A stretch of 56,340 nucleotides of DNA from assembly GCA_018648445.1 (NCBI GenBank), contig JABGRG010000011.1, forward strand, positions 1 to 56,340, given 5' to 3'. This document shows positions 38,481-50,279 of this stretch, piece after piece. Within the stretch, counting starts at the first letter, position 1. Each line of letters begins with the position of its first letter. Source of the DNA: Rhodospirillales bacterium (GTDB lineage Bacteria > Pseudomonadota > Alphaproteobacteria > Rhodospirillales_A > JACZKS01). The translations under genes were made by a program, and so were the position numbers. The notes below the pieces were generated by a model that saw only the letters and a list, made by a program, of their open reading frames with translations, was not told the origin of the DNA and searched no databases.

Positions 38481-39163
38481 CGCCTTCTGATCAACTGCGT
38501 CTGGATTTCGATCTTCGTCCGGCCCTGGGTGGCGAGGATTTCCTGGTCGCCCCCAATAATTCCGACGCCGTGGCGTGGCTGGACCGATGGCCCGACTGGC
38601 CATCTCCGGTGCTGACCATCTACGGCCCGCCCGGTTGCGGAAAGTCCCACCTGACGCAGGTCTTTCTTGCAGCAGGCGGCGTGGCGAAGGTTGGTGCGAA
38701 AGAATTGGGAAATACGGAGCCGCACGAAATTCTGGGCGATGCGCAAGCCTGCGCCATTGATCACGTCGAAGCGGTACTATCGGCCGGGCTGGAGCGCCAA
38801 TTGCTTCACCTGTATAACGTTGCCGCCGAAACCGGTCGAAAACTGTTACTGACCGCGCACTCGGCCCCCGCCTTCTGGCCGCTGTCGATTGCCGATCTGC
38901 GTTCGCGAATGGGTGCGGGTGTCGCGGTCGAAATTGGCGCACCCGATGATCCGTTGATTGCGGCGGTACTGGTCAAGCTGTTTGCTGATCGTCAGCTTCG
39001 GGTCGACGGCGGCGTGGTGACATTTCTTCTTTCGCGCATGGAGCGTTCGTTCGATGCGGCGCGGCGCGTTGTGGCCGCTATCGACGAAGCGGCTCTGGCA
39101 GAACACCGCAACATCACGGTGCCGCTGGTCAGGAAGGTGCTGGCGACCCTTCAATCGACTTGA
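38477..39163 (+). CDS. hdaA: DnaA-related regulatory inactivator HdaA
   Basis: A 228-residue AAA+ protein. The N-terminal QLRLDFDL (residues 6-13) is the beta-clamp binding motif of Hda proteins, and YGPPGCGKSHL (49-59) is the Walker A. The C-terminal domain resembles the DnaA AAA+ lid; no DNA-binding domain IV is present. With the clamp it stimulates ATP hydrolysis by DnaA to stop re-initiation. TTG 38477 overlaps the preceding TGA. Its last 35 bases overlap the 3' end of the convergent adenylate cyclase gene. Confidence 0.92.
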   Translation: MTPSDQLRLDFDLRPALGGEDFLVAPNNSDAVAWLDRWPDWPSPVLTIYGPPGCGKSHLTQVFLAAGGVAKVGAKELGNTEPHEILGDAQACAIDHVEAVLSAGLERQLLHLYNVAAETGRKLLLTAHSAPAFWPLSIADLRSRMGAGVAVEIGAPDDPLIAAVLVKLFADRQLRVDGGVVTFLLSRMERSFDAARRVVAAIDEAALAEHRNITVPLVRKVLATLQST

Positions 39164-40808
39164 TTGCCTCAAGATCGGAAATCGCGAAGACGTCGATGGG
39201 CGCCTCGCGGCCCTTTACGGTTACTTTATGCTTGGCGAAGGATGAGGTGTCGATGCCGACACGGGCTAACAGGTCGGCTGAAACGACCAGCGGGCAATCG
39301 AATTCCTTGGTCTGACTTTCCAGCCTTGCCGCGATGTTGATGTTGTCGCCGATGGCCGACAGCAGAGGCGCTTTCGGAGGCCCCATGACCCCGACAATGG
39401 CCTCGCCGACATGAATTCCAATACCCATACGCAACGGTTCCGCCAACTCGTTTTTTAGGCGTCGGTTCAGTGTGTCCAGGCGCGCGAACATTTGGGCGGC
39501 CCCGGCCAAAGCCTGACGGCTTCCTGCGGTTACTCCGTCTTCCAGACCGTATAGCGCCATTAGTCCGTCGCCCGCGAACTGGGCGTAGTGTCCGTCGGTA
39601 TCGCTGAGCGCGGCCGTCATCTCGGCGAAAAAGAGGTTGAGAATGAATAGAACGTCATAAGGAAGCCGGCGCTCGCCGAGGCGCGTCGAACCGCGCAGAT
39701 CAATGAACATGGTGACGATCTGTTGCTCGCGCCCGTGGACGCCACCGGGAAGCCGACCGTGGGCGGCGGTGGCGGTCGGCGGAAGCAGGGGGGTTGCGTG
39801 CAAATCACGGCGCGGTCTCACCTGACAGGCCAATCTGATAGAGGGGGCGGCGTCAATTTTGGCCAGCGCGCGCGCCTCCATCGGTTCGGGTTTCGGCAAA
39901 TGCGAAATGGCATCGCCAACGCTGACCCGGCAGGTCGTGCACCGTCCCCGACCGCCGCAGACAGCGGCGTGCTCAATTCCCGCACCCTGGATTGCCTCAA
40001 GCACGCTGTTGCCGACCGGCGTTCTTACGGAGCGTCCGTCGGGAAGCTGGATTTGGAAAGTTCCATGGCGATTGCGGTACGCCCGTCGCGCCAGTCGCGC
40101 CAACAGCGTCAACGCAACGAGACCGGCCAGCACGGCCAGTAAGATGACTTCCAGACTTCCATGTATCTCCCTAAGAGAAGATGGCGAAGCCAGGTACTCG
40201 GCGAAAACACCTTCCTGCCACAAGGGATCGACGGCGCGCTGTTCGGCTTCAAACCCGGCTCGCAGAAAGCCGACAACGGCCAGAACCGGCAGGATCATAA
40301 CTGCGGGGTAAAGGATGGGAACAACTGCCCCATACCAGGGCTTGAGCCGCAGCCAGAAATGAAGGCCGACGCAAAGGTGCCCCCAGACCACCAGCAGAAG
40401 GACCGATTGCTTCAGAATAATCCAAGCGCCGCCCGACCAGATGGAGGCGATGATGAAGGGGTAGGTCGGATCGATCCCTAGAATTTCGTAGCTGCCCCGT
40501 GTGCCGATTGCATGGGCCATTAACAATGGCCAGACCAAAAGCCCGAGGATCAGTTGCGCCGCTTCCCACCTTGCCATGCGTAAGTGAGGCCGTCGGTACA
40601 GGGCGATCAGGGCCAGCAGAAAATGAACAAGGAAAGCGCCGAATAGAAAGGGGCCGCCCAGCGGGCTTCGCCACGGCACGTTGAGGATGCGGCGAACCGC
40701 CTCAAGCGCGTCCAGTGAAAAGATGCCGAAAGAATGATTGAAAAGATGCGGGATAACGAAGGCCGCAACGATCAGGCCGGACCAGAGGCGCAGGTGTTTT
40801 TCAAGCAT
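39129..40808 (-). CDS. Membrane adenylate cyclase with haem-b-like anchor and [2Fe-2S] domain
   Basis: A 559-residue three-part protein. Residues 1-245 hold about six helices with histidines at 21, 25, 62, 99, 144 and 150, resembling the succinate-dehydrogenase-like dihaem cytochrome b anchor. Residues 250-335 are a ferredoxin-type domain with Cys284, Cys290, Cys293 (CGGRGRCTTC) and Cys328. Residues 362-545 are a class III cyclase domain: Asp370 (MFIDLRGST), Asp414 (FAGDGLMALYG) and Asn491/Arg495 (NINIAARLE). Redox-sensing cyclases of this type (CyaC of Sinorhizobium) are known. It follows the SixA gene by 44 bases on the same strand. Substrate ATP versus GTP is not proven by sequence. Confidence 0.9.
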   Translation of the reverse strand: MLEKHLRLWSGLIVAAFVIPHLFNHSFGIFSLDALEAVRRILNVPWRSPLGGPFLFGAFLVHFLLALIALYRRPHLRMARWEAAQLILGLLVWPLLMAHAIGTRGSYEILGIDPTYPFIIASIWSGGAWIILKQSVLLLVVWGHLCVGLHFWLRLKPWYGAVVPILYPAVMILPVLAVVGFLRAGFEAEQRAVDPLWQEGVFAEYLASPSSLREIHGSLEVILLAVLAGLVALTLLARLARRAYRNRHGTFQIQLPDGRSVRTPVGNSVLEAIQGAGIEHAAVCGGRGRCTTCRVSVGDAISHLPKPEPMEARALAKIDAAPSIRLACQVRPRRDLHATPLLPPTATAAHGRLPGGVHGREQQIVTMFIDLRGSTRLGERRLPYDVLFILNLFFAEMTAALSDTDGHYAQFAGDGLMALYGLEDGVTAGSRQALAGAAQMFARLDTLNRRLKNELAEPLRMGIGIHVGEAIVGVMGPPKAPLLSAIGDNINIAARLESQTKEFDCPLVVSADLLARVGIDTSSFAKHKVTVKGREAPIDVFAISDLEAIKSIEGSPAPS

Positions 40809-40852
40809 GACTGGAATGTAGGAGTGCCCCCTGCGTTATTCCAGTCTGGGCG

Positions 40853-41368
40853 TTATTCCAAATCGTGCGGGCTGACAAACGCAATCAACTGCGCGCCGTC
40901 TCGTTCGATATCGCGCCAATGAGCGATGTCGGTTTGCAGGACCGCCAGGGCGGCGGTCGGGAATTTCACGGCCATGCGGCTATAGGCCTCCTCGTCGCCG
41001 CTTCCGGCCAAAAAGTGCGCCAGCTCCTCCATGCCGGGGTTGTGCCCGACGATCATCACTGCCCCGACCGCATCGTCCAGCGCCCGTAAACGGCGCACCC
41101 ATACGCTGGCGTCGGCATGATAGAGCGCGTCGTCAATAACGGCGGGAAGATCGCCGTCGAACTGGGCCTGAACCTTTTCCAGGGTGGAAACCGTGCGCTT
41201 GGCGGCGGAACACAAAACAAGTTCGGGTCGGGGATTGTGCCCACCCAGATATACGGCCATGTTTTTTGCCGCGCGCTTGCCGCGCTTGTTCAGCGGCCGG
41301 TCGAAGTCGGCCAGCGTCGGGTCTTTCCAACTAGATTTCGCATGGCGCAACAGATAGATCGTTTTCAT
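40853..41368 (-). CDS. SixA-like histidine phosphatase
   Basis: A 171-residue histidine-phosphatase-fold protein. The phosphohistidine motif LRHAKSSW puts the nucleophile at His9, and the second active-site histidine is in MIVGHNPGMEEL (about 112). SRTV-like arginines (AAKRTVSTLE) complete the pocket. SixA acts on phosphohistidines of phosphotransfer proteins; other members hydrolyse small phosphates. It lies 32 bases after ppk1 and is likely in the same operon, which makes polyphosphate metabolism or its control a plausible setting. Confidence 0.9.
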   Translation of the reverse strand: MKTIYLLRHAKSSWKDPTLADFDRPLNKRGKRAAKNMAVYLGGHNPRPELVLCSAAKRTVSTLEKVQAQFDGDLPAVIDDALYHADASVWVRRLRALDDAVGAVMIVGHNPGMEELAHFLAGSGDEEAYSRMAVKFPTAALAVLQTDIAHWRDIERDGAQLIAFVSPHDLE

Positions 41369-41400
41369 CCCGGCCCTTTTTTTGGCGCCAACCGAAGGTG

Positions 41401-43677
41401 CTATTGCGTGGCGCGGCGCGCAATTCCTTTAAGCCTGCGTTTGCGCAACTTGTTGGCTTCGGCGTGGCGTTTTTCGGCTGCCGCGATCATAACTTGCTGG
41501 CAGCCCATATTGCGTTGCCGCGCATCCGGTTGACGTTGCACGTAGCTGCCGTCCGATTGCATGTCCCAGACGCTGCGCGGATCGATTAGCTGGGCCTCGA
41601 ACACAGCGTCGAGTTCGCGCTGCAGTGCAGGGTCTTCGACCGGCGTGATAATCTCGACCCGGCTTTTCAGGTTGCGCTTCATCAGGTCTGCCGAACCGAT
41701 GAAGTACTCGTCCTCACCACCGTTGGCAAAATGGTAAATGCGCGCGTGTTCAAGGAACCGTCCGACGACGGAAACAATGGTGATGTTCTCGGATAATCCC
41801 TTGATGCCCGGCAGCAGGCGGCAGGTGTCGCGGATGACCAATTCCACCTTTACCCCGGCCTGTGACGCCCGATAAAGCGCCTCGACGATCTGGGTGTCTT
41901 CCAGCGCATTGGATTTAAGCCGGATCAGGCCCGGCTGATCAGCCGAGTGGATTTGGATTTCGCGGTCGACCTTGTCCAGCAGCGCCTTTTTCATCGCTTT
42001 CGGCGCGGTCAGGATTTTCCGGTAGTTGCGCGACGGCTTGCACCCGGTGGTCAGGTAATTGAACAATTCGGTCAAATCGTGGCCCACGTCTTCGTCACAC
42101 GTTAGAAGGCCCAGATCGCAATACATTCGCGCATTGCCCGCGTGATAATTACCGGTCCCCAGATGGGCGTAGCGCCGCAGACCGCTATAATCGCGGCGCA
42201 CGACCAGGATCGCCTTGGCGTGCGTTTTCAGGCCGACGACCCCGTAGGTTACGTGAACGCCCACATCCTCCAGCCGGCTTGCCCAGCCGATGTTGGCGGC
42301 CTCGTCGAAACGGGCCTTTAGCTCGACCACCACGGCGACCTGTTTGCCGTTGCGTGCGGCATCCATCAGATAATCGATAATGGCGGTTCCGGCGCTGGTT
42401 CGATACAGCGTCATCTTGATCGCCATAACCTTCGGGTCCTGGCTTGCTTCGCGGACGAAACGTTCGACCGAGGTCGAAAACGATTCATAAGGATGGTGCA
42501 GAAGGATTGATCCGTAATCGCGGATAATGTGGAAAATGCTGCGCGGGTCACGCAACGAAGTATTGTCGATGGGACGATGCATCGGATCGTGCAGGTCCGG
42601 CATGTCGAGCGAAGCCAGTTCAATCAGATCCTTCATGCCGATCATGACGTCGGTTTCGCTGACATCCTTGGCTTCGTCCAGACCCAGTTCAGCGGCCAGC
42701 ATACCGCGATGCACCGGATCAATGCCTTTTTGCGTTTGCAGACGCACGATCGGTGCGAACTTGCGGTCGCGCAATTCGGTTTCGATCATTTCCAGAAGGT
42801 CGTCGGCGTGTTCCTCGTCTTTCTCGGTATTGGCGTTGCGCGTTACGCGGAATACTTCACACGACTCAATGGTGCGATCCGGAAACAGAAGGTCCAGATT
42901 GTTGGCCATGACCTCTTCCAGAGGGACGAAGCGGTTTTTCTCTCCAACCCGCAGGAAGCGCGGCACGCCCGAGCCGACAGGCACTTTCACCCGCGCCATG
43001 ATCGAATCCTGTTCGTCTTGCTGATGCAACGCGGCCAGCAAATTGAGCGACAGGTTCGATAGGTGGGGGAACGGATGGGCCGGATCCATGGCCAGCGGGG
43101 TAACCAGCGGAAAGATGTTTTTCAGATAATATTCGCGGATTTTCGTGCGCTCGGCAGGGGTCAGGTCGCCGTACGTGAGCACATGGATTCTGTGCCGGGC
43201 CAGCTCCGCCAGGGTTTCCCGATAGACGTCGCGCTTGATTTTCTCGATCTCGGCGATCTCGGCCAGGCATTCGTCAATCTGCTGTTGGGGGGTTCTACCA
43301 TCCACCGTCTGTCGATGGACACCGGCGCCGACCTGCTGTTTCAGGCCGCCGACGCGCTTCATGATGAACTCGTCCAGGGTCATATCGCATATGGCCAGGA
43401 ACTTGACCCGCTCCAGCAGCGGCGTTCTCGGATCACACGCTTCGTTCAGGACGCGGCGGTTAAAGGTCAGCCATGTCAGCTCGCGATTGAGGAACAGCTT
43501 GGGCGTGCGCAGGTTCTTCGGCACGGTGAAAGGCGACGAAGTGGGCTTCATGCTGCAACCGGGCACCCGTACTTCAGGCGCAGGCGGTTCGACCGCAGTT
43601 GCCGTTTTTTCCGCGACGGATTTAACCGGAGCGGCTTCATCCACCAAAGTTGCCGCTTGTTTCGCCGTAGGGGTCAT
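41401..43677 (-). CDS. ppk1: Polyphosphate kinase 1
   Basis: A 758-residue PPK1, reversibly making polyphosphate from ATP. After a ~45-residue unstructured N tail rich in Ala, Val and Pro, the core begins with LFLNRELTWLTFNRRVLNEA. The autophosphorylated histidine lies in GLKTHAKAIL, and HARIYHFANGGEDEYFIGSADLMKRNL is the second phospholipase-D-like motif. The C-terminal tail (about 715-758) is very basic. It follows the PPK2-type gene by 18 bases and precedes the SixA gene. Confidence 0.97.
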   Translation of the reverse strand: MTPTAKQAATLVDEAAPVKSVAEKTATAVEPPAPEVRVPGCSMKPTSSPFTVPKNLRTPKLFLNRELTWLTFNRRVLNEACDPRTPLLERVKFLAICDMTLDEFIMKRVGGLKQQVGAGVHRQTVDGRTPQQQIDECLAEIAEIEKIKRDVYRETLAELARHRIHVLTYGDLTPAERTKIREYYLKNIFPLVTPLAMDPAHPFPHLSNLSLNLLAALHQQDEQDSIMARVKVPVGSGVPRFLRVGEKNRFVPLEEVMANNLDLLFPDRTIESCEVFRVTRNANTEKDEEHADDLLEMIETELRDRKFAPIVRLQTQKGIDPVHRGMLAAELGLDEAKDVSETDVMIGMKDLIELASLDMPDLHDPMHRPIDNTSLRDPRSIFHIIRDYGSILLHHPYESFSTSVERFVREASQDPKVMAIKMTLYRTSAGTAIIDYLMDAARNGKQVAVVVELKARFDEAANIGWASRLEDVGVHVTYGVVGLKTHAKAILVVRRDYSGLRRYAHLGTGNYHAGNARMYCDLGLLTCDEDVGHDLTELFNYLTTGCKPSRNYRKILTAPKAMKKALLDKVDREIQIHSADQPGLIRLKSNALEDTQIVEALYRASQAGVKVELVIRDTCRLLPGIKGLSENITIVSVVGRFLEHARIYHFANGGEDEYFIGSADLMKRNLKSRVEIITPVEDPALQRELDAVFEAQLIDPRSVWDMQSDGSYVQRQPDARQRNMGCQQVMIAAAEKRHAEANKLRKRRLKGIARRATQ

Positions 43678-43695
43678 TGGGTCCTCTTTCTCAGG

Positions 43696-45276
43696 CTATG
43701 CCTTTTTGGTTTTGGTCTTTCGGCGTTTGGCCGCCAGGGCAATTTCCAACTTATCGCAAAAAGTGGCGATGGTTTTTATTCTCGAATAGCGTTTGTTGTT
43801 TCCTTCGACCAGGGTCCATGGCGCGATCGACGTGCTTGTGCGCGCGATCATATCGTTCACCGCGAGTTCGTAGTCGTCCCACCGTTCGCGATTTCGCCAA
43901 TCCTCGTCAGTTAACTTCCAACGTTTATACGAGATTTTCTTGCGTTCCTTAAATCGTCTTAACTGCTCTTCCTTGCTGATATGTACCCAGTATTTGAGCA
44001 GGACGATCCCGTGATCAACGAGTTGTTCCTCGAAATCGTTCAGTTCAGAATAGCCGCGCATCCATTCCGCTTCGGTGGCGAAACCTTCGATGCGTTCGAC
44101 AAGGACGCGACCGTACCAGCTGCGATCGAAAATAGTAACCCGACCGGCTCGGGAAAGATGCCGCCAGAACCGCCACAGGTGGTGGTGCGCCTTTTCCTCG
44201 TCGGTGGGCGCGGCAATGGGGATAACCTGATAGCTGCGCGAATCCAGCGCCGCCGTGGTGCGCCGGATGGCGCCGCCCTTGCCCGCCGCGTCCCACCCTT
44301 CGAAAACAAGGATTGACGACAGGCCGCGCTCGTGGGCTTCGCGCGAAAGCCGATGCAGCCGCCCTTGATAGGTTTCCAGCTTCTTTTGGTATTCGCTGCG
44401 GGTCAGCGCAAGGTCGTCGTCCAGCTTGCTCAAAATCGAAACCCCGGGTGCGGGCATGGCGAATTCCGTTGTGCCGCTCGGTTTGCCGGTTCCCTTCTTT
44501 TTGGTCTTTTTTTGTATCTTATTTTGTGTGGCTCGTAACTCGGCGGCCACTCGTTCGGCGGTTTCAAATTCGGCCAGGTGACGTTCGATGGCGTCACGAA
44601 TGGTGGTGGCGACGGTCAGGCTGCGATAGGGGGCGTCGGCGCCCTCGACAATCCGCCACGGTACCCGGCCAACGCTGCTGCGCATGATCGTGCGTTCGGC
44701 GGTGGCGATGAATTTATCGTACATGCGCCAGTGCGCCCAGTCGGTCTTGGTCACGCGCCATGACGTGAGGGGATCGGCCTCAAGGGCTTCAAAGCGTTCC
44801 TTTTGAGCTTCCTTGCCGAGGTGCATCCAGAATTTGAGAATCAATGCCCCGTCGTTGGCAAGGCCGCGTTCGAAGGCGATAATGCGATCCAGCGCGTCGT
44901 CGAGTTCCGCGTCGGTTCGCTTTTCATAGACATGATCAAGGACTGGGCGCGAGTACCAGGAACTCAGGAAACAGCCGATCACGCCCTTGGGTGGCAAAGC
45001 CCGCCAGTAACGCCAGAATTCCGGCCTTTCGTGCTCCTCGTCGGATGGCTCGTCGAAGGCCCGCGTGATGGTCCAACGTGGATCCATCCATTCGTTCAGA
45101 AGATCGGCGGTTTCGCTCTTGCCCGCGCCGTCGACGCCCGCAAAAACAATGATCACCGGGAATTTGGCGCGCCGAAGCATTTGCTGGACTTCCAGCAACT
45201 GGGTTCTGAGCGCCGGCACTTGCTGATTGAAAACCGATTTTTCGATGCGATTTCCAAGTTCCGCAGCTTCGAACAT
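43696..45276 (-). CDS. pap: Two-domain PPK2-family polyphosphate:AMP phosphotransferase
   Basis: A 526-residue protein with two PPK2 domains. Domain 1 has FAGVDGAGKSET (45-56) and a lid arginine region (RPEFWRYWRALP); domain 2 has FEGWDAAGKGGAIRR (about 325-339) and HHLWRFWRHLSRAG. A lysine-rich linker (252-265) joins them. Two-domain PPK2 proteins use polyphosphate to phosphorylate AMP to ADP. ATG 45276 follows GGGGAGAGC. It lies between parA and ppk1 in the same run. Only domain 2 has the fuller GKGG form; domain 1 has GKSE, so the first may be inactive. Confidence 0.92.
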   Translation of the reverse strand: MFEAAELGNRIEKSVFNQQVPALRTQLLEVQQMLRRAKFPVIIVFAGVDGAGKSETADLLNEWMDPRWTITRAFDEPSDEEHERPEFWRYWRALPPKGVIGCFLSSWYSRPVLDHVYEKRTDAELDDALDRIIAFERGLANDGALILKFWMHLGKEAQKERFEALEADPLTSWRVTKTDWAHWRMYDKFIATAERTIMRSSVGRVPWRIVEGADAPYRSLTVATTIRDAIERHLAEFETAERVAAELRATQNKIQKKTKKKGTGKPSGTTEFAMPAPGVSILSKLDDDLALTRSEYQKKLETYQGRLHRLSREAHERGLSSILVFEGWDAAGKGGAIRRTTAALDSRSYQVIPIAAPTDEEKAHHHLWRFWRHLSRAGRVTIFDRSWYGRVLVERIEGFATEAEWMRGYSELNDFEEQLVDHGIVLLKYWVHISKEEQLRRFKERKKISYKRWKLTDEDWRNRERWDDYELAVNDMIARTSTSIAPWTLVEGNNKRYSRIKTIATFCDKLEIALAAKRRKTKTKKA

Positions 45277-45305
45277 AGCTTTGCTCTCCCCGGACTGTTG
45301 GGCCG

Positions 45306-45947
45306 TTACCGGTCTTTCTGGAAGGCGACGTTGCTTATAAACCGCAACAAGGGCCGCCATTCCTCGGTGTAACGCTCGGCGCGGCTGGGCGCCATGTCGA
45401 AAATGCTCAGGCCGCCCGCCGACGCGGTCGGATAAAGCTGGGTGTCGCGAATCAACGAAACAACGTCCTGATTCAACCCCGCCAGGAAATCCTCCAGATG
45501 GCGCGACGCGGTCGTTCGCACCCGTATCCGATTTCCGACCAGCGCGACCGCCCTTTTATTGTTGCGGATCGGCTTCAATTTGTCGAGAACCCGCAAGAAT
45601 CTGCGTGTCGTCGCCTCGTCGAAAAGCGACGGCAATACCGGGATGAGGATCACGTCGGCGGTTTGCACCAGTTCGCGCACCGCGCCGCGGCGAACGGCAG
45701 CCGGGGCGTCGACGACCAGACGCCGGGTTCCGCCAGGTACCTTCCCAATCTTCTTTGTCCAGTCCAGTCCGGTAATCGGCGGATATTTTTCGGGGCGTTG
45801 CTTGATCCAGGTAAGGGAAGATTTCTGACGGTCGCAATCGGCCAGTACCGTTTCGAAACCCGATAGCGCGAATGCCCCAGCAAGGTTGGTGGCCAGCGTC
45901 GACTTGCCGCAACCACCCTTGGGATTTGTGACCAGTATCGTAAGCAT
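45306..45947 (-). CDS. ParA-family ATPase
   Basis: A 213-residue ParA/MinD-type ATPase with the deviant Walker A KGGCGKST at residues 10-17, a Walker A' with Asp37 and Asp39 (ADCDRQKSS), and a Walker B Asp80 (LVVDAPAA). It lacks the N-terminal DNA-binding domain of plasmid ParA, so it is the small type used for chromosomal cargo positioning. No ParB or CTP-switch gene is nearby; the neighbours are a CHAD protein upstream (17 bases) and PPK2 downstream (29 bases). ATG 45947 is preferred over upstream residues. A role in placing polyphosphate granules is inference. Confidence 0.9.
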   Translation of the reverse strand: MLTILVTNPKGGCGKSTLATNLAGAFALSGFETVLADCDRQKSSLTWIKQRPEKYPPITGLDWTKKIGKVPGGTRRLVVDAPAAVRRGAVRELVQTADVILIPVLPSLFDEATTRRFLRVLDKLKPIRNNKRAVALVGNRIRVRTTASRHLEDFLAGLNQDVVSLIRDTQLYPTASAGGLSIFDMAPSRAERYTEEWRPLLRFISNVAFQKDR

Positions 45948-45964
45948 TACTTCTCGGCCTTGCT

Positions 45965-47506
45965 TCAGGTGGACCAAAAACGTTTGCAGGCGAGCAGACG
46001 GGCGACGTCGTCTGCCAGAGTTTTGGTGGCTTGCTCCGCGCCAAAGGAATGCCAGCCCAGAACCAGCGCGCCCGCGCGAGCGATGGGTCCGGCGGTGTTC
46101 CGCGAGGACGTCTTCACCAGATGCGCGACAAGATCGCGGGCCACGGCGACATCGTTCATGTAGCCCAGACCGTCCTGCAATTTTTGCATTTCGGTCGTGA
46201 AACCGCGCACCCGTTCGCGTCCGTAGAGCGAGCTGAAAAAATCAGTCGCGTATCGAAGTTTTTTGACATCAATACGCAATTGGTGCTTTTCTTCCGCACT
46301 CAGGGTGTCGAAAACGCGACCCTGTTTGCGCACCTTCTTGAAGCGCTTGGACAAGAGACTGTCCGACAACTCAATGATCGGCCGCTGCAAAAGAGCCGTC
46401 GCTCCTGCGTCGCGCCGGTTGCGCCATTTGCGTCCTTCGATCCAGCCCAGTGTTTCCAGAAGGAATGTGGTGAAACGCGGATCGGCGATTTCCTCGCGGG
46501 CTTCGGTCCGGGCGTTTGCGCGGTCTTCCGACAGGCGTTTCATCAGCACGGCAAAGGCGGGCTCGCCTTCCATGGCGGCGGCGACGGGCCCGACGATTTC
46601 ATCCATGAACACGTCGAGATCACGGGTGTCGGCCAAACTTTTGGTCTGCCATTTCACTTCGTCGGTGATGCGCTCGTACTGTTCACGCGGCATGACGTCG
46701 CGGAAAATGCGCAAGGCCGAACGCATGCGGCGCATAGCGACCCGCATTTGATGCACGCCTTCGGGATGGTCGCTCAACCTCGTGATCTGTTCGTTGTCCA
46801 TCAAGTGGTCGAGGCAATGGTGCAGGATGTGAACGAGGGTATCTTCCACGTTGGCCGATTGCGGAAGATCCAGCGGAACAGCCTTGCGCCACCCCGGCCC
46901 AGCGCCCAGCGCCTGCAGAGCCGCGATTTCACGGCTGGTCGTGGCGACGCGCAATGGAACCTTGGCGTGAATATCGAGAGCTACGTCAAAGGGCGCCGCG
47001 CCGTCGGCAGATTTTGTATCGAGAACGATCTCGCTGAATTTTTGATTGTCGTCACCGGCGGCGAATTCGCCGTTTTCCAGGGCGAAGTTCACGGCCCTGC
47101 GTTTCGGTGTCACCAGATGACGTATCGTACGATGAATTCGGCATTGAAGAACCGGTTCCAGCAGGCTTCCGGGAGATGGTGTCGCCAGGGCGCGCAAATC
47201 AGCATTGCCGACGGCTCCGGGATCGGGTTCCGGCGTCGGCAGGGGGTTCTCCCAATGAAGGCGACGGACCCGCACACCGTGCAGCGAGATTCCGGTGGCG
47301 CACACCGACTGAATGTATCGGTTGTCAACCTTGCGAACTTCGATGACCACGTTGCGTGAGGCCAACTGCTGGTCGGCGGTATCGAAACAGGTTGCTCCCA
47401 CCGTTCCGGTGGTGGCGCGTTGCGATGACATCTCGCGCAATTGCCGAAGGTTGCGAATTCGGTTCAGGTCTTTTCCGTCGATTGTCAGCCGCAAATTCTT
47501 TTTCAT
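45965..47506 (-). CDS. CHAD domain protein with degenerate CYTH domain
   Basis: A 513-residue protein. Residues 1-205 show a weakened CYTH fold: FDTADQQLASRNVVIEVRKVDNRY and SEIVLDTKSADGAAPFDVALD align with CYTH strands, but the expected N-terminal ExExK is NLRLT and EIELELK has become EIVLDTK. Residues 220-505 form the CHAD helical bundle, with its two characteristic motifs HQMRVAMRRMRSALRIF (252-268) and HQLRIDVKKLRYATDFF. The many basic residues bind polyphosphate in studied homologues. ATG 47506 is preferred; GTG 47524 would add six residues. It is the first gene of the polyphosphate run. Confidence 0.92.
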   Translation of the reverse strand: MKKNLRLTIDGKDLNRIRNLRQLREMSSQRATTGTVGATCFDTADQQLASRNVVIEVRKVDNRYIQSVCATGISLHGVRVRRLHWENPLPTPEPDPGAVGNADLRALATPSPGSLLEPVLQCRIHRTIRHLVTPKRRAVNFALENGEFAAGDDNQKFSEIVLDTKSADGAAPFDVALDIHAKVPLRVATTSREIAALQALGAGPGWRKAVPLDLPQSANVEDTLVHILHHCLDHLMDNEQITRLSDHPEGVHQMRVAMRRMRSALRIFRDVMPREQYERITDEVKWQTKSLADTRDLDVFMDEIVGPVAAAMEGEPAFAVLMKRLSEDRANARTEAREEIADPRFTTFLLETLGWIEGRKWRNRRDAGATALLQRPIIELSDSLLSKRFKKVRKQGRVFDTLSAEEKHQLRIDVKKLRYATDFFSSLYGRERVRGFTTEMQKLQDGLGYMNDVAVARDLVAHLVKTSSRNTAGPIARAGALVLGWHSFGAEQATKTLADDVARLLACKRFWST

Positions 47507-47526
47507 TTCGTCCTGCTTCGACACTT

Positions 47527-47553
47527 AATACCTGTTACACCATATGAGGTATT
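47527..47553. promoter_or_regulatory. Inverted repeat in the CHAD-ppx divergent region
   Basis: AATACCT (47527-47533) and AGGTATT (47547-47553) form perfect seven-base arms around 13 bases, in the 105-base gap between the CHAD gene and ppx. On the minus strand TTGCAG and TATGGT are 17 bases apart and overlap this repeat, a possible CHAD operon promoter. It could be the shared operator of the whole polyphosphate locus. The sequence is not a recognisable Pho box. Confidence 0.45.
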
Positions 47554-47611
47554 GACCGTTTCTGCAAAGAAAGCCGTGGCTAATCCCCTGTTCATTGTGG
47601 GAAAAAGGAAT

Positions 47612-49114
47612 ATGGCAAAACCCGTAGTTGCGAAAAATCGTTCGGGGCGTATCGGTGTCATCGATATCGGCTCGAATACGGTGCGCCTCGTGATCTACGA
47701 AGCGCCGACCCGCCTGCCGTTTCCACTTTTCAACGAGAAAGCACAATGCGGGCTTGGACGGTCCATGGCCCGCACCGGACGCCTCGATACGCAAGGGGTC
47801 GAAGCCGCGCGTATCGCATTGGGCCGGTTTGTTCTTTTGGCGGAGGCGACCGGGGTCGATCATTTGGAATTGGTGGCGACGGCGGCCGTGCGCGAAGCTT
47901 CCGACGGCCCCGAATTCGTCGAAGACATCGAAAAACGCTTCGGCGTGAAGGTTGACGTTATCGACGGCGCGGAGGAAGCCCAGCTTGCCGCGCGCGGCGT
48001 TCTCAGCGGCGTTCCCAATGCCGATGGATTGCTGGGTGATCTAGGTGGAGGCAGCCTTGATCTCGTGGTTCTGGAAAAAGGCAAATTCGGACGATGCGAA
48101 ACTTTCCCGCTAGGCCACCTGCGGCTTGCGGAAGGTGGGCGGACACCGGCTGAAGCATCCGGCATGGCTGCGGAATATCTGGAAAGGGAAAAGTGGCTGG
48201 ACGAAATCAAGGGCCGAAATCTGTACGCGTTGGGCGGCTCGTGGCGCGCCGTTGCCGGCGTGCTTCTTGATCGTCTCGACTGGCCGTTGCACGTCATAGA
48301 CAATTTCTCGATTTCTCCAGATGAGGCGCTGGACCGGCTGGACTATGTGGCCCGGATTGATCCTAAATCCTGGCCAAGGGCTGGCAGAATTTCCCGCCGC
48401 CGTGTCGGGTCCTTGCCGTTTGCGGCGTCTGCCCTGGAGATGCTAATCAGGCGCACCAACCCGGCGCGTGTAATCTTCTCGGGGTTCGGTATGCGCGAAG
48501 GCCGAATGCTGAGCTGTTTGCCCGAGGAGGTGCGCCGACAGGATCCGCTGATCGCCGGATGCGCGGGCCATGCGGAACGCAGCGGGCGCTTCAGCGTGCA
48601 CGGCGAGGAAATTACAGCCTGGATGGAACCCTTGTTCACGGATACCGACGCCGACGCTTCCGGCGTCCGTTTGCGCACGGCGGCTAGCCTGTTAAGCGAC
48701 ATATCGTGGAGTGTTCACCCCGATTATCGCGGGGAAAATGCTTTCCACCGGGTCTTGCGGCTTCCGTTTGCGGGGCTTTCCCACGAGGATCGGGTCGAAT
48801 TGGCATTGGCGGTTTTCGTGCGTTACGGCGGCGATCTTTCGTCGAACATTTTGTCGCGGCCGATGTCGCTTCTGGGCGAGCGCGGGTCCATGCGCGCCGT
48901 GGCCGTCGGGCGAGCGTTGCATCTGGCCCATACGCTATCGGGGGGAGCGCCGGGACTGCTCTCGAAAACATGTCTACGGCGCAAACGCAACCGTGTGGTT
49001 CTCGATCTGGGAACAGATGGCGCCCTATTTCAGAGCGAGGCCGTCGAACGCCGCTTGGGCAGGCTGGCGAAAAGCATGGATCTGAAGCCGAGGATCGTCT
49101 CGGCGGAAGATTGA
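47612..49114 (+). CDS. ppx: Exopolyphosphatase/guanosine pentaphosphatase (Ppx/GppA)
   Basis: A 500-residue ASKHA-fold enzyme that releases phosphate from polyphosphate ends (and, in some members, from pppGpp). VIDIGSNTVRLVIYE, TAAVREASDG, and GDLGGGSLDLVVLEKG are the nucleotide/phosphate motifs, and the C-terminal HD-like helical domain (ENAFHRVLRLPFAGLSHEDR) is present. ATG 47612 follows AAAAAGGAAT. It is divergent from the CHAD-led operon and convergent with rnd four bases away. Pairing with PPK1 fits a polyphosphate cycle. Confidence 0.95.
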   Translation: MAKPVVAKNRSGRIGVIDIGSNTVRLVIYEAPTRLPFPLFNEKAQCGLGRSMARTGRLDTQGVEAARIALGRFVLLAEATGVDHLELVATAAVREASDGPEFVEDIEKRFGVKVDVIDGAEEAQLAARGVLSGVPNADGLLGDLGGGSLDLVVLEKGKFGRCETFPLGHLRLAEGGRTPAEASGMAAEYLEREKWLDEIKGRNLYALGGSWRAVAGVLLDRLDWPLHVIDNFSISPDEALDRLDYVARIDPKSWPRAGRISRRRVGSLPFAASALEMLIRRTNPARVIFSGFGMREGRMLSCLPEEVRRQDPLIAGCAGHAERSGRFSVHGEEITAWMEPLFTDTDADASGVRLRTAASLLSDISWSVHPDYRGENAFHRVLRLPFAGLSHEDRVELALAVFVRYGGDLSSNILSRPMSLLGERGSMRAVAVGRALHLAHTLSGGAPGLLSKTCLRRKRNRVVLDLGTDGALFQSEAVERRLGRLAKSMDLKPRIVSAED

Positions 49115-49118
49115 CGCG

Positions 49119-50279
49119 CTACGCGTCGCCGATGCTGACGGCTTTCAGTTTGCGCCCCTTAACCATCAGGGCGGTTTCGCCGTTGCGTAGCTGAAGGGCT
49201 TCGGCACCGAACACCTCGCGGCGCCAACCGCGAAGGGCAGGAACGTCCGCCTTTTCACCCAATGCGGCGATGAGATCGAGGTCGCTGGCCGAAGCAACCA
49301 GCTTTTGCGCCGCACCCGATTCCTCGCACTTCATTTTCAGCAAAACTTTCAAAAGATCGGTCAACGGCCCCAAGCCAGCCGGAATATCCGGCCTTTTAAT
49401 CTGTTGCGGGCAATCCTTTTCCGGGATTGCCAGTCCGCGGCCGACGGCAGCAAGCACGGCCGCGCCCGCCGGGCCTTCTGCGAAGCGCCGCCCCAATCCC
49501 CTGGTTCGCGCCAGATCGGAGGGGGTGGACGGCGTATGGTGGGCGATCTCGCACAGTGCTTCATCGCGGACCACGTGACTTCGCGGCACGTCAATGCGCC
49601 GCGCCTCAAGTTCCCGCCATGCGCCCAGCTCACGAAGTACGGCAAAAAAACGGGGCGACGAGGCCCTCGACTTAATTCTCCGGAAAACTTCCTGCGGGTC
49701 CTGGATGTAAGTGCCGGGCAGGGAAAGCGTTTCGATTTCCTCTTCGAGCCAATTGGCGCGACCGTTGTGACTTAGTTTCTTGAGAAGTTTCCCATAGACG
49801 ATGCGCAGATGGGTAACGTCGGCCAGCGCGTAGGAAATCTGTTTTTCCGAGAGCGGGCGCGCGGACCAGTCCGTAAACCGCGAGGATTTATCCAGCCGCG
49901 CCCCGGCCAGCTTCTTGACCAGCGTTTCATACCCGGCAGAGTCTCCGAACCCGCAGACCATCGCCGCGATCTGCGTATCGAAGACCGGCTCGGGTAGCCG
50001 GTCCATGATGTGAAGAAATATTTCCAGGTCCTGCCGGGCCGCGTGAAAGACCTTCAAGACCTTTTCGTTGGTCATCAGACCCCACACCGGCGAAAGGTCG
50101 ATGCCTTCGGCCAGGGCGTCCACGGCGGCGGCCTCTTCGTCACCGGCAAGTTGGATGACGCATAGCTTCGGCCAAAAGGTCCGTTCGCGCATGAATTCGG
50201 TGTCGACGGTGACAAAATCGGAATTGGCGATGCGTTCGCAGAAGGCAGCCAGGGTCCGCGTATCGGTTATTAAGCTCAT
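49119..50279 (-). CDS. rnd: Ribonuclease D
   Basis: A 386-residue 3'-5' exonuclease that trims tRNA precursors. The DEDDy catalytic set is intact: Asp26 and Glu28 (VDTEF), Asp84 (ARQDLEIF), and Tyr150-x3-Asp154 (YALAD). The HRDC domain (about residues 205-285) and a second helical domain follow. ATG 50279 is preferred over GTG 50288. It converges on ppx with four bases between the stops, and is divergent from aspS across a 217-base gap. Confidence 0.96.
   Translation of the reverse strand: MSLITDTRTLAAFCERIANSDFVTVDTEFMRERTFWPKLCVIQLAGDEEAAAVDALAEGIDLSPVWGLMTNEKVLKVFHAARQDLEIFLHIMDRLPEPVFDTQIAAMVCGFGDSAGYETLVKKLAGARLDKSSRFTDWSARPLSEKQISYALADVTHLRIVYGKLLKKLSHNGRANWLEEEIETLSLPGTYIQDPQEVFRRIKSRASSPRFFAVLRELGAWRELEARRIDVPRSHVVRDEALCEIAHHTPSTPSDLARTRGLGRRFAEGPAGAAVLAAVGRGLAIPEKDCPQQIKRPDIPAGLGPLTDLLKVLLKMKCEESGAAQKLVASASDLDLIAALGEKADVPALRGWRREVFGAEALQLRNGETALMVKGRKLKAVSIGDA

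Follow-up and report, generated by a model that had tools for sequence, protein, structure and literature searches.

CHAD proteins elsewhere bind polyphosphate and its granules (PMC6537752, PMC9239181), and in ParA/MinD systems an ATPase is joined to its cargo via a partner, often one with a positively charged, disordered N terminus (PMC10241942). In Pseudomonas aeruginosa, the spacing of polyphosphate granules depends on AlgP (PMC9239181). A 2025 review describes the proteins behind granule placement in Caulobacter as unknown and the use of energy as undecided, and its available text lists no ATPase for polyphosphate granules (PMC13052382). In Acidithiobacillus, a folD-ppk-parA-CHAD cluster has been reported to be highly conserved within the genus; the paper is a copper study that describes ParA merely as a plasmid partition protein, and its available parts give ParA no granule role (PMC10892726). 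Here, we describe adjacent genes for a CHAD protein and a small ParA-type ATPase, set in a row of polyphosphate genes within a 56,340-nucleotide stretch of DNA from a Rhodospirillales bacterium (contig JABGRG010000011.1; the whole stretch is called the window). We infer that the two proteins probably act as a pair to position or partition polyphosphate granules. No proposal of CHAD-ParA granule positioning was found in the open-access literature searched, a body of work outside which preprints and most subscription papers lie.

The domains of the window proteins were assigned by Pfam and NCBIfam profile scans. The CHAD gene (45965-47506, minus strand; PF05235, 197 bits) starts at an ATG at 47506 with AGGA upstream, an alternative GTG lying at 47524, and is followed by the gene for the ParA-type ATPase of 213 amino acids (45306-45947, minus strand; CbiA, PF01656, 54 bits). 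A search with a ParA alignment returned at least 536 relatives, of which the best 80 were kept as loci. Genes in the relative loci were called by an in-house script rather than a standard caller, which left ParA uncalled in L104, L106, L107, and L234. CHAD lies immediately upstream of ParA, on the same strand, in 53 of the best 80 loci, with gaps of -7 to 164 nucleotides. The flanking genes were compared in these 53 loci and one more from a plasmid collection (L082). Among the 54, 17 kinds of gene precede CHAD (53 known, the commonest seen 15 times) and 29 kinds follow ParA (54 known, the commonest seen 7 times). Such varied flanks around a constant pair indicate that CHAD and ParA are kept together while their surroundings change.

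The same adjacency was found when whole groups of genomes were surveyed. In the order containing Skermanella aerolata, this ParA is present in 74 of 82 genomes and CHAD in all 82. CHAD stands directly upstream at no fewer than 72 of the 74 ParA genes, as typed from the stronger CHAD places among the matches listed and in genomes that are close kin rather than independent cases. Of 190 genomes drawn evenly from the class, 12 had a ParA match, 10 of them strong (E below 1e-70). CHAD occurs in all 10 strong-ParA genomes and in 61 of the 180 others (Fisher p 3.5e-5, uncorrected for kinship); the two genes are directly adjacent in 6 of the 10, CHAD lies elsewhere in 3, and ParA is at a contig end in 1 (G155). 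Cultured genera that carry the pair include Azospirillum, Skermanella, Inquilinus, and Nitrospirillum.

Related ParA proteins were also found in 31 of 398 genomes sampled across the phylum. Of 34 places in this sample, 30 loci were examined, the nearest relative locus (L001) being covered separately. CHAD is adjacent to ParA in L085 only (in L086 it lies several genes off and was not counted), and SixA directly follows ParA in 8 of the 30. L120 has the arrangement CHAD-ParA-SixA. In the order to which L085 belongs, a distant one, this ParA is present in 50 of 100 genomes, and 45 loci of 56 places were examined. ParA is followed by a Pfam-confirmed CHAD in five of these (L085, L162, L165, L168, and L173, the last two from the same genome). 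SixA stands in front of ParA-CHAD in four of the five, and a TIGR03708-type PPK2 lies behind the pair in L162 and L168, as in the window. The same four families, ParA, CHAD, SixA, and PPK2, are therefore found together in a distant order with a different gene order, and the ParA-CHAD-SixA linkage is conserved. A tree was built from 138 of 159 called ParA proteins after near-copies were removed. The window falls in one alphaproteobacterial clade of 50 rows (support 99/89), and the CHAD-linked rows of the distant order fall across a 100/90 split from that clade. The CHAD-linkage label needs at least six changes on well-supported branches, in a tree where several long rows are of unsure placement and where L161, withdrawn from the counts as a ParA-CHAD locus because its adjacent gene encodes a CYTH protein with no CHAD match, is still labeled CHAD.

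A second, remotely related ParA subfamily is also paired with CHAD. In L138, the CHAD gene extends into the start of a different ParA of 254 amino acids, which scores 27 bits against the first ParA profile, in a genome without the first ParA. Examination of 40 of the 67 places of this subfamily, with ParA called in 39, showed CHAD directly before ParA in 3 of the 39 further loci, one of which (L203) has SixA next. The four pairs lie at L138:3345-5701, L202:3421-5747, L203:3373-6286, and L212:3478-5753. Since a CHAD gene and a ParA gene would rarely come to lie side by side by chance among some thousands of genes, this second pairing is telling. None of the four linked CHAD proteins has a Pfam CYTH match. 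Behind the pair in L138 and L202, the opposite strand carries a solitary CYTH gene, and in L211 a second-subfamily ParA also has a DUF47 gene and a phosphate transporter nearby.

The genome search that the sequence-only reading had proposed as a check thus gives a positive answer: CHAD-ParA adjacency extends beyond this genome, in near relatives, in a distant order, and with a second kind of ParA. It could have been inherited by hitchhiking, with no shared function, and most of the linked loci do come from the one alphaproteobacterial clade (43 of its 50 rows), so that they are not independent events. However, the pair stays while its flanks change, and it recurs reversed in the distant order and with the second ParA subfamily; mere hitchhiking is very improbable. 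Because of this conservation amid changing flanks and these recurrences, we are highly confident that ParA and CHAD are functionally coupled.

The ATPase signature and fold of the window ParA are intact. The protein carries the deviant Walker A motif KGGCGKST with the signature lysine; K10 and K15 are kept in 137 of the 138 tree rows (the other having a gap), D39 and D80 in all 138, and R140 in nearly all. An AlphaFold model (predicted local distance difference test score [pLDDT], 90.6) has as its nearest solved folds 3cwq, ParF 4e07 (template modeling [TM] score, 0.78-0.80), and 5u1g, with E values of about 1e-11. The net charge of the window ParA is +14, and CHAD-adjacent ParA proteins are often basic (median, +7; n=66). 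The charge and the conserved region of R140 are at most indirect hints of an ATP-dependent sandwich dimer and of nucleoid or membrane binding. BcsQ structures are also among the fold matches, and BcsQ is a helper in cellulose synthesis. By that comparison, ParA could use ATP to help or switch CHAD, PPK, or SixA, serving assembly or activity control instead of position. The same linkage evidence would suit such a role, and ParA is linked to the enzymes PPK2, PPK1, and SixA as well. However, the most constant partner of ParA is CHAD, which is a binder rather than an enzyme, the closest solved folds are partition ATPases, and the basic charge of CHAD-adjacent ParA suits DNA binding. A helper role is unlikely on balance.

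In the CHAD protein, an intact CHAD domain occupies the C-terminal part and a degenerate CYTH-type fold lies in front of it, as judged with AlphaFold (pLDDT, 91.6) and Foldseek, the best structural match being full-length YgiF 5a60. No Pfam CYTH match was obtained for the window protein even at E 10. The histidine and basic residues H252, R255, R260, R295, H408, R411, K415, and R418 are invariant across 20 CHAD rows. The catalytic motif of CYTH/TTM triphosphatases, ExExK, is absent from the CHAD proteins of the window, L001, and L002. Its loss was considered as a general mark of ParA linkage and rejected, the motif being kept in 57 of the 62 CHAD proteins of ParA loci. A conserved FW tail at the CHAD C terminus (45974-45982 in the window) is present in 60 of these 62. 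For comparison, we used 40 alphaproteobacterial CHAD loci (L121-L160) in which no ParA of this kind is adjacent, drawn from the highest-scoring CHAD matches; the source genomes of three (L158-L160) carry this ParA elsewhere. The tail was rejected as a ParA contact motif, as it also occurs in 32 of these 40 CHAD proteins, and its frequency there indicates that it is a general CHAD feature.

In the granule-positioning mechanism that we propose, the CHAD protein would coat polyphosphate, by analogy with other CHAD proteins, and ParA would bind ATP, dimerize, and hold onto the nucleoid. CHAD-coated granules meeting ParA would trigger ATP hydrolysis and release, with the outcome that granules would be spaced or tethered, or would be distributed between the daughter cells at division. 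The polyphosphate would be made and used by PPK1 and PPK2, and SixA would have its targets in this system too, possibly phosphohistidine enzymes like PPK1. Direct contact between ParA and CHAD, nucleoid binding, and granule movement are the steps that we infer here.

Several findings weigh against this mechanism. A basic, disordered N-terminal partner peptide was sought in the 62 CHAD proteins of ParA loci and not found; the median charge of their first 30 residues is -1, and the first 30 residues of the window CHAD protein have a charge of +6 and yet are modeled as a strand followed by a helix. This result indicates that the contact with ParA, if any, is through another CHAD surface. It weakens standard membership in the ParA/MinD cargo-positioning class, and the pair may still work in a similar way; it also favors the helper role considered above, since the typical partner peptide is missing. 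The sequence-only reading had cast CHAD as the adaptor that couples granules to ParA. Its link to ParA is indeed nonaccidental, whereas our search of CHAD turned up neither a ParA-specific tail nor a basic N-terminal peptide. The distribution of the genes is a further difficulty. Other neighbors and no CHAD link are seen in 27 of the best 80 ParA loci (Magnetospirillum, Telmatospirillum, and others), and 61 of the 71 CHAD genomes of the class sample lack this ParA, which shows that CHAD can do without it. No CHAD match was found in 8 of 27 phylum-sample genomes with a broader-family ParA. In the distant order, 40 of the 45 loci are without a CHAD link, including a dnaX/ybaB-recR-ParA group, and in L161 SixA-ParA is followed by the CYTH protein with no recognizable CHAD. 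The CHAD link is likewise absent from 36 of the 39 second-subfamily loci, which mostly have RnfH-TruA: RnfH and truA lie beside ParA in 15 and 16 of the 39, mostly divergent (L207-L228, e.g., L215:4977-6237). This setting indicates that the second subfamily overall is not tied to polyphosphate.

The row as a whole consists of six minus-strand genes, as the sequence-only reading had it: all are present with the named domains, in the order CHAD, ParA, two-domain PPK2, PPK1, SixA, and 2Fe-2S cyclase, with intergenic gaps of 17, 29, 18, 32, and 44 nucleotides, and ppx is divergent. The PPK2 is of the polyphosphate:AMP phosphotransferase type (43696-45276, minus strand), with two stretches matching PF03976 and 681 bits to TIGR03708 (cutoff, 548); its start was taken at the ATG at 45276 with GGGAG upstream, the open reading frame as listed beginning earlier. 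PPK1, a polyphosphate kinase, is encoded at 41401-43677 on the minus strand (TIGR03705, 755 bits). The SixA-like histidine phosphatase (40853-41368, minus strand) matches His_Phos_1 (PF00300) with 38 bits and TIGR00249 with 62.7 bits, the latter below its cutoff of 74.5. A protein with Fer2 and Guanylate_cyc domains, which combines a 2Fe-2S domain with a class III nucleotide cyclase, is encoded at 39129-40808 on the minus strand, and the exopolyphosphatase gene ppx (Ppx-GppA domain) lies on the plus strand at about 47612-49114.

Comparison with relatives separates the constant members of this row from the variable ones. L001 has divergent ppx and CHAD-ParA-PPK2-PPK1-SixA, with proteins 52 to 78 percent identical, and the row in L002, CHAD-ParA-PPK2-PPK1, includes a PPK2 of one domain only. 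No match to the cyclase was found in L001, which indicates that the cyclase is not core, contrary to its earlier inclusion in the system. The cyclase protein, with its ferredoxin-type 2Fe-2S domain, has an extended hydrophobic N terminus, and a relative that shares both domains is encoded three genes away from a CHAD gene (L146:1372-3093). In the 40 comparison loci, SixA lies no more than three genes from CHAD in 18 (15 of 37 when the genomes bearing ParA elsewhere are left out; e.g., L129:2865-4912) and immediately beside it on the same strand in 9. Near CHAD, hdaA is found in 7 of the 40 and ppk1 in 4. SixA and CHAD are therefore common neighbors without ParA, and ParA and PPK2 are the additions. 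The earlier expectation that related alphaproteobacteria have only hdaA-ppk-ppx-rnd here was inaccurate, as CHAD and SixA often adjoin each other, sometimes with ppk1 or hdaA, where ParA is missing. The idea that the extra genes were an insertion of function survives for ParA and PPK2 and fails for SixA and CHAD. We raise as a possibility, one we hold tentatively, that CHAD-ParA is a general ATP-driven granule segregation system assembled more than once, in two lineages of one ParA subfamily and in a second subfamily, and that SixA recurs as its third component.

The gene hdaA faces the window cluster, and relatives of ParA adjoin the DNA repair and nucleoid genes recR and ybaB. Both observations would fit a role of ParA in attaching CHAD and polyphosphate to the chromosome in the service of the DNA itself, for instance in nucleoid organization or replication control, and not for granule placement. 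However, the recR-linked ParA rows stand apart from the CHAD-linked rows in the tree, and hdaA is near CHAD also in genomes without ParA; a DNA purpose is distinctly unlikely, less probable even than a helper role. ParA follows ybaB-recR in 8 of the 40 distant-order loci and in L091. One ParA branch follows recR, mostly with ybaB before it (L091:6634-7585, L163, L166, L167, L183, L185, L189, L195, and L196). In another branch, ParA is followed by a MaoC-like hydratase (L098:6609-7061, scanned), and the neighbors in L099-L103 and L108 cluster with it. An orphan ParA from Acinetobacter baumannii (L081:6001-6645; 39 percent identity) has an endonuclease-annotated gene on one side and an AI-2E transporter gene on the other, with no CHAD or polyphosphate gene found within 6 kb. 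Promoter and terminator scans of the window cluster gave background levels only, with three sigma-70-like sites in 38900-49300 versus 3.3 expected. A Pho-box-like pattern has three matches in the window versus 2.3 expected, none of them inside the cluster.

For the question of granule placement, the CHAD-ParA pair puts names to an ATPase and to a granule binder, in cultured genera. If granule positioning is the function of the pair, a storage polymer would be added to the cargos of ParA ATPases, and the partner would be of a type without the usual peptide. Should CHAD-ParA be the general granule segregation system raised above, no earlier ATP-dependent machinery would be on record for polyphosphate granules, and the ParA adaptor would be a folded binder of a phosphate polymer. 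The recurring link to SixA points to possible phosphohistidine control of polyphosphate.

Each of the known systems resembles this one in part. The window ParA shares its fold and length with ParF of TP228 and other small plasmid partition ATPases (4e07, 5u1g), and NF041546 is its best NCBIfam match. Unlike ParF, it scores 117 bits, under the curated NF041546 cutoff of 180, has a chromosomal metabolic setting, and reads DRQ in place of DPQ in the switch region; in contrast to ParF/TP228 systems, no ParB was found among the 29 window proteins scanned. The CHAD protein has the two-domain layout of the YgiF-type CYTH-CHAD proteins (phosins), whereas it has neither the ExExK motif nor a Pfam CYTH score and is paired with ParA. 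The Acidithiobacillus cluster has ParA, CHAD, and ppk side by side, a likeness that comes from gene names as published, while PPK2 and SixA are not named in the available description (PMC10892726). In the AlgP system, a nucleoid-linked factor likewise spaces polyphosphate granules, yet AlgP is a histone-like protein and not an ATPase, and neither ParA nor MinD occurs as a whole word in the available text of PMC9239181. McdA-McdB carboxysome positioning also joins a small ParA-type ATPase with an adjacent cargo binder, encoded in or near the cargo genes (PMC10241942, PMC13052382). It differs in that the charged N-terminal peptide was not found in the window system, where the adaptor would be a folded CYTH-CHAD protein and the proposed cargo is polyphosphate.

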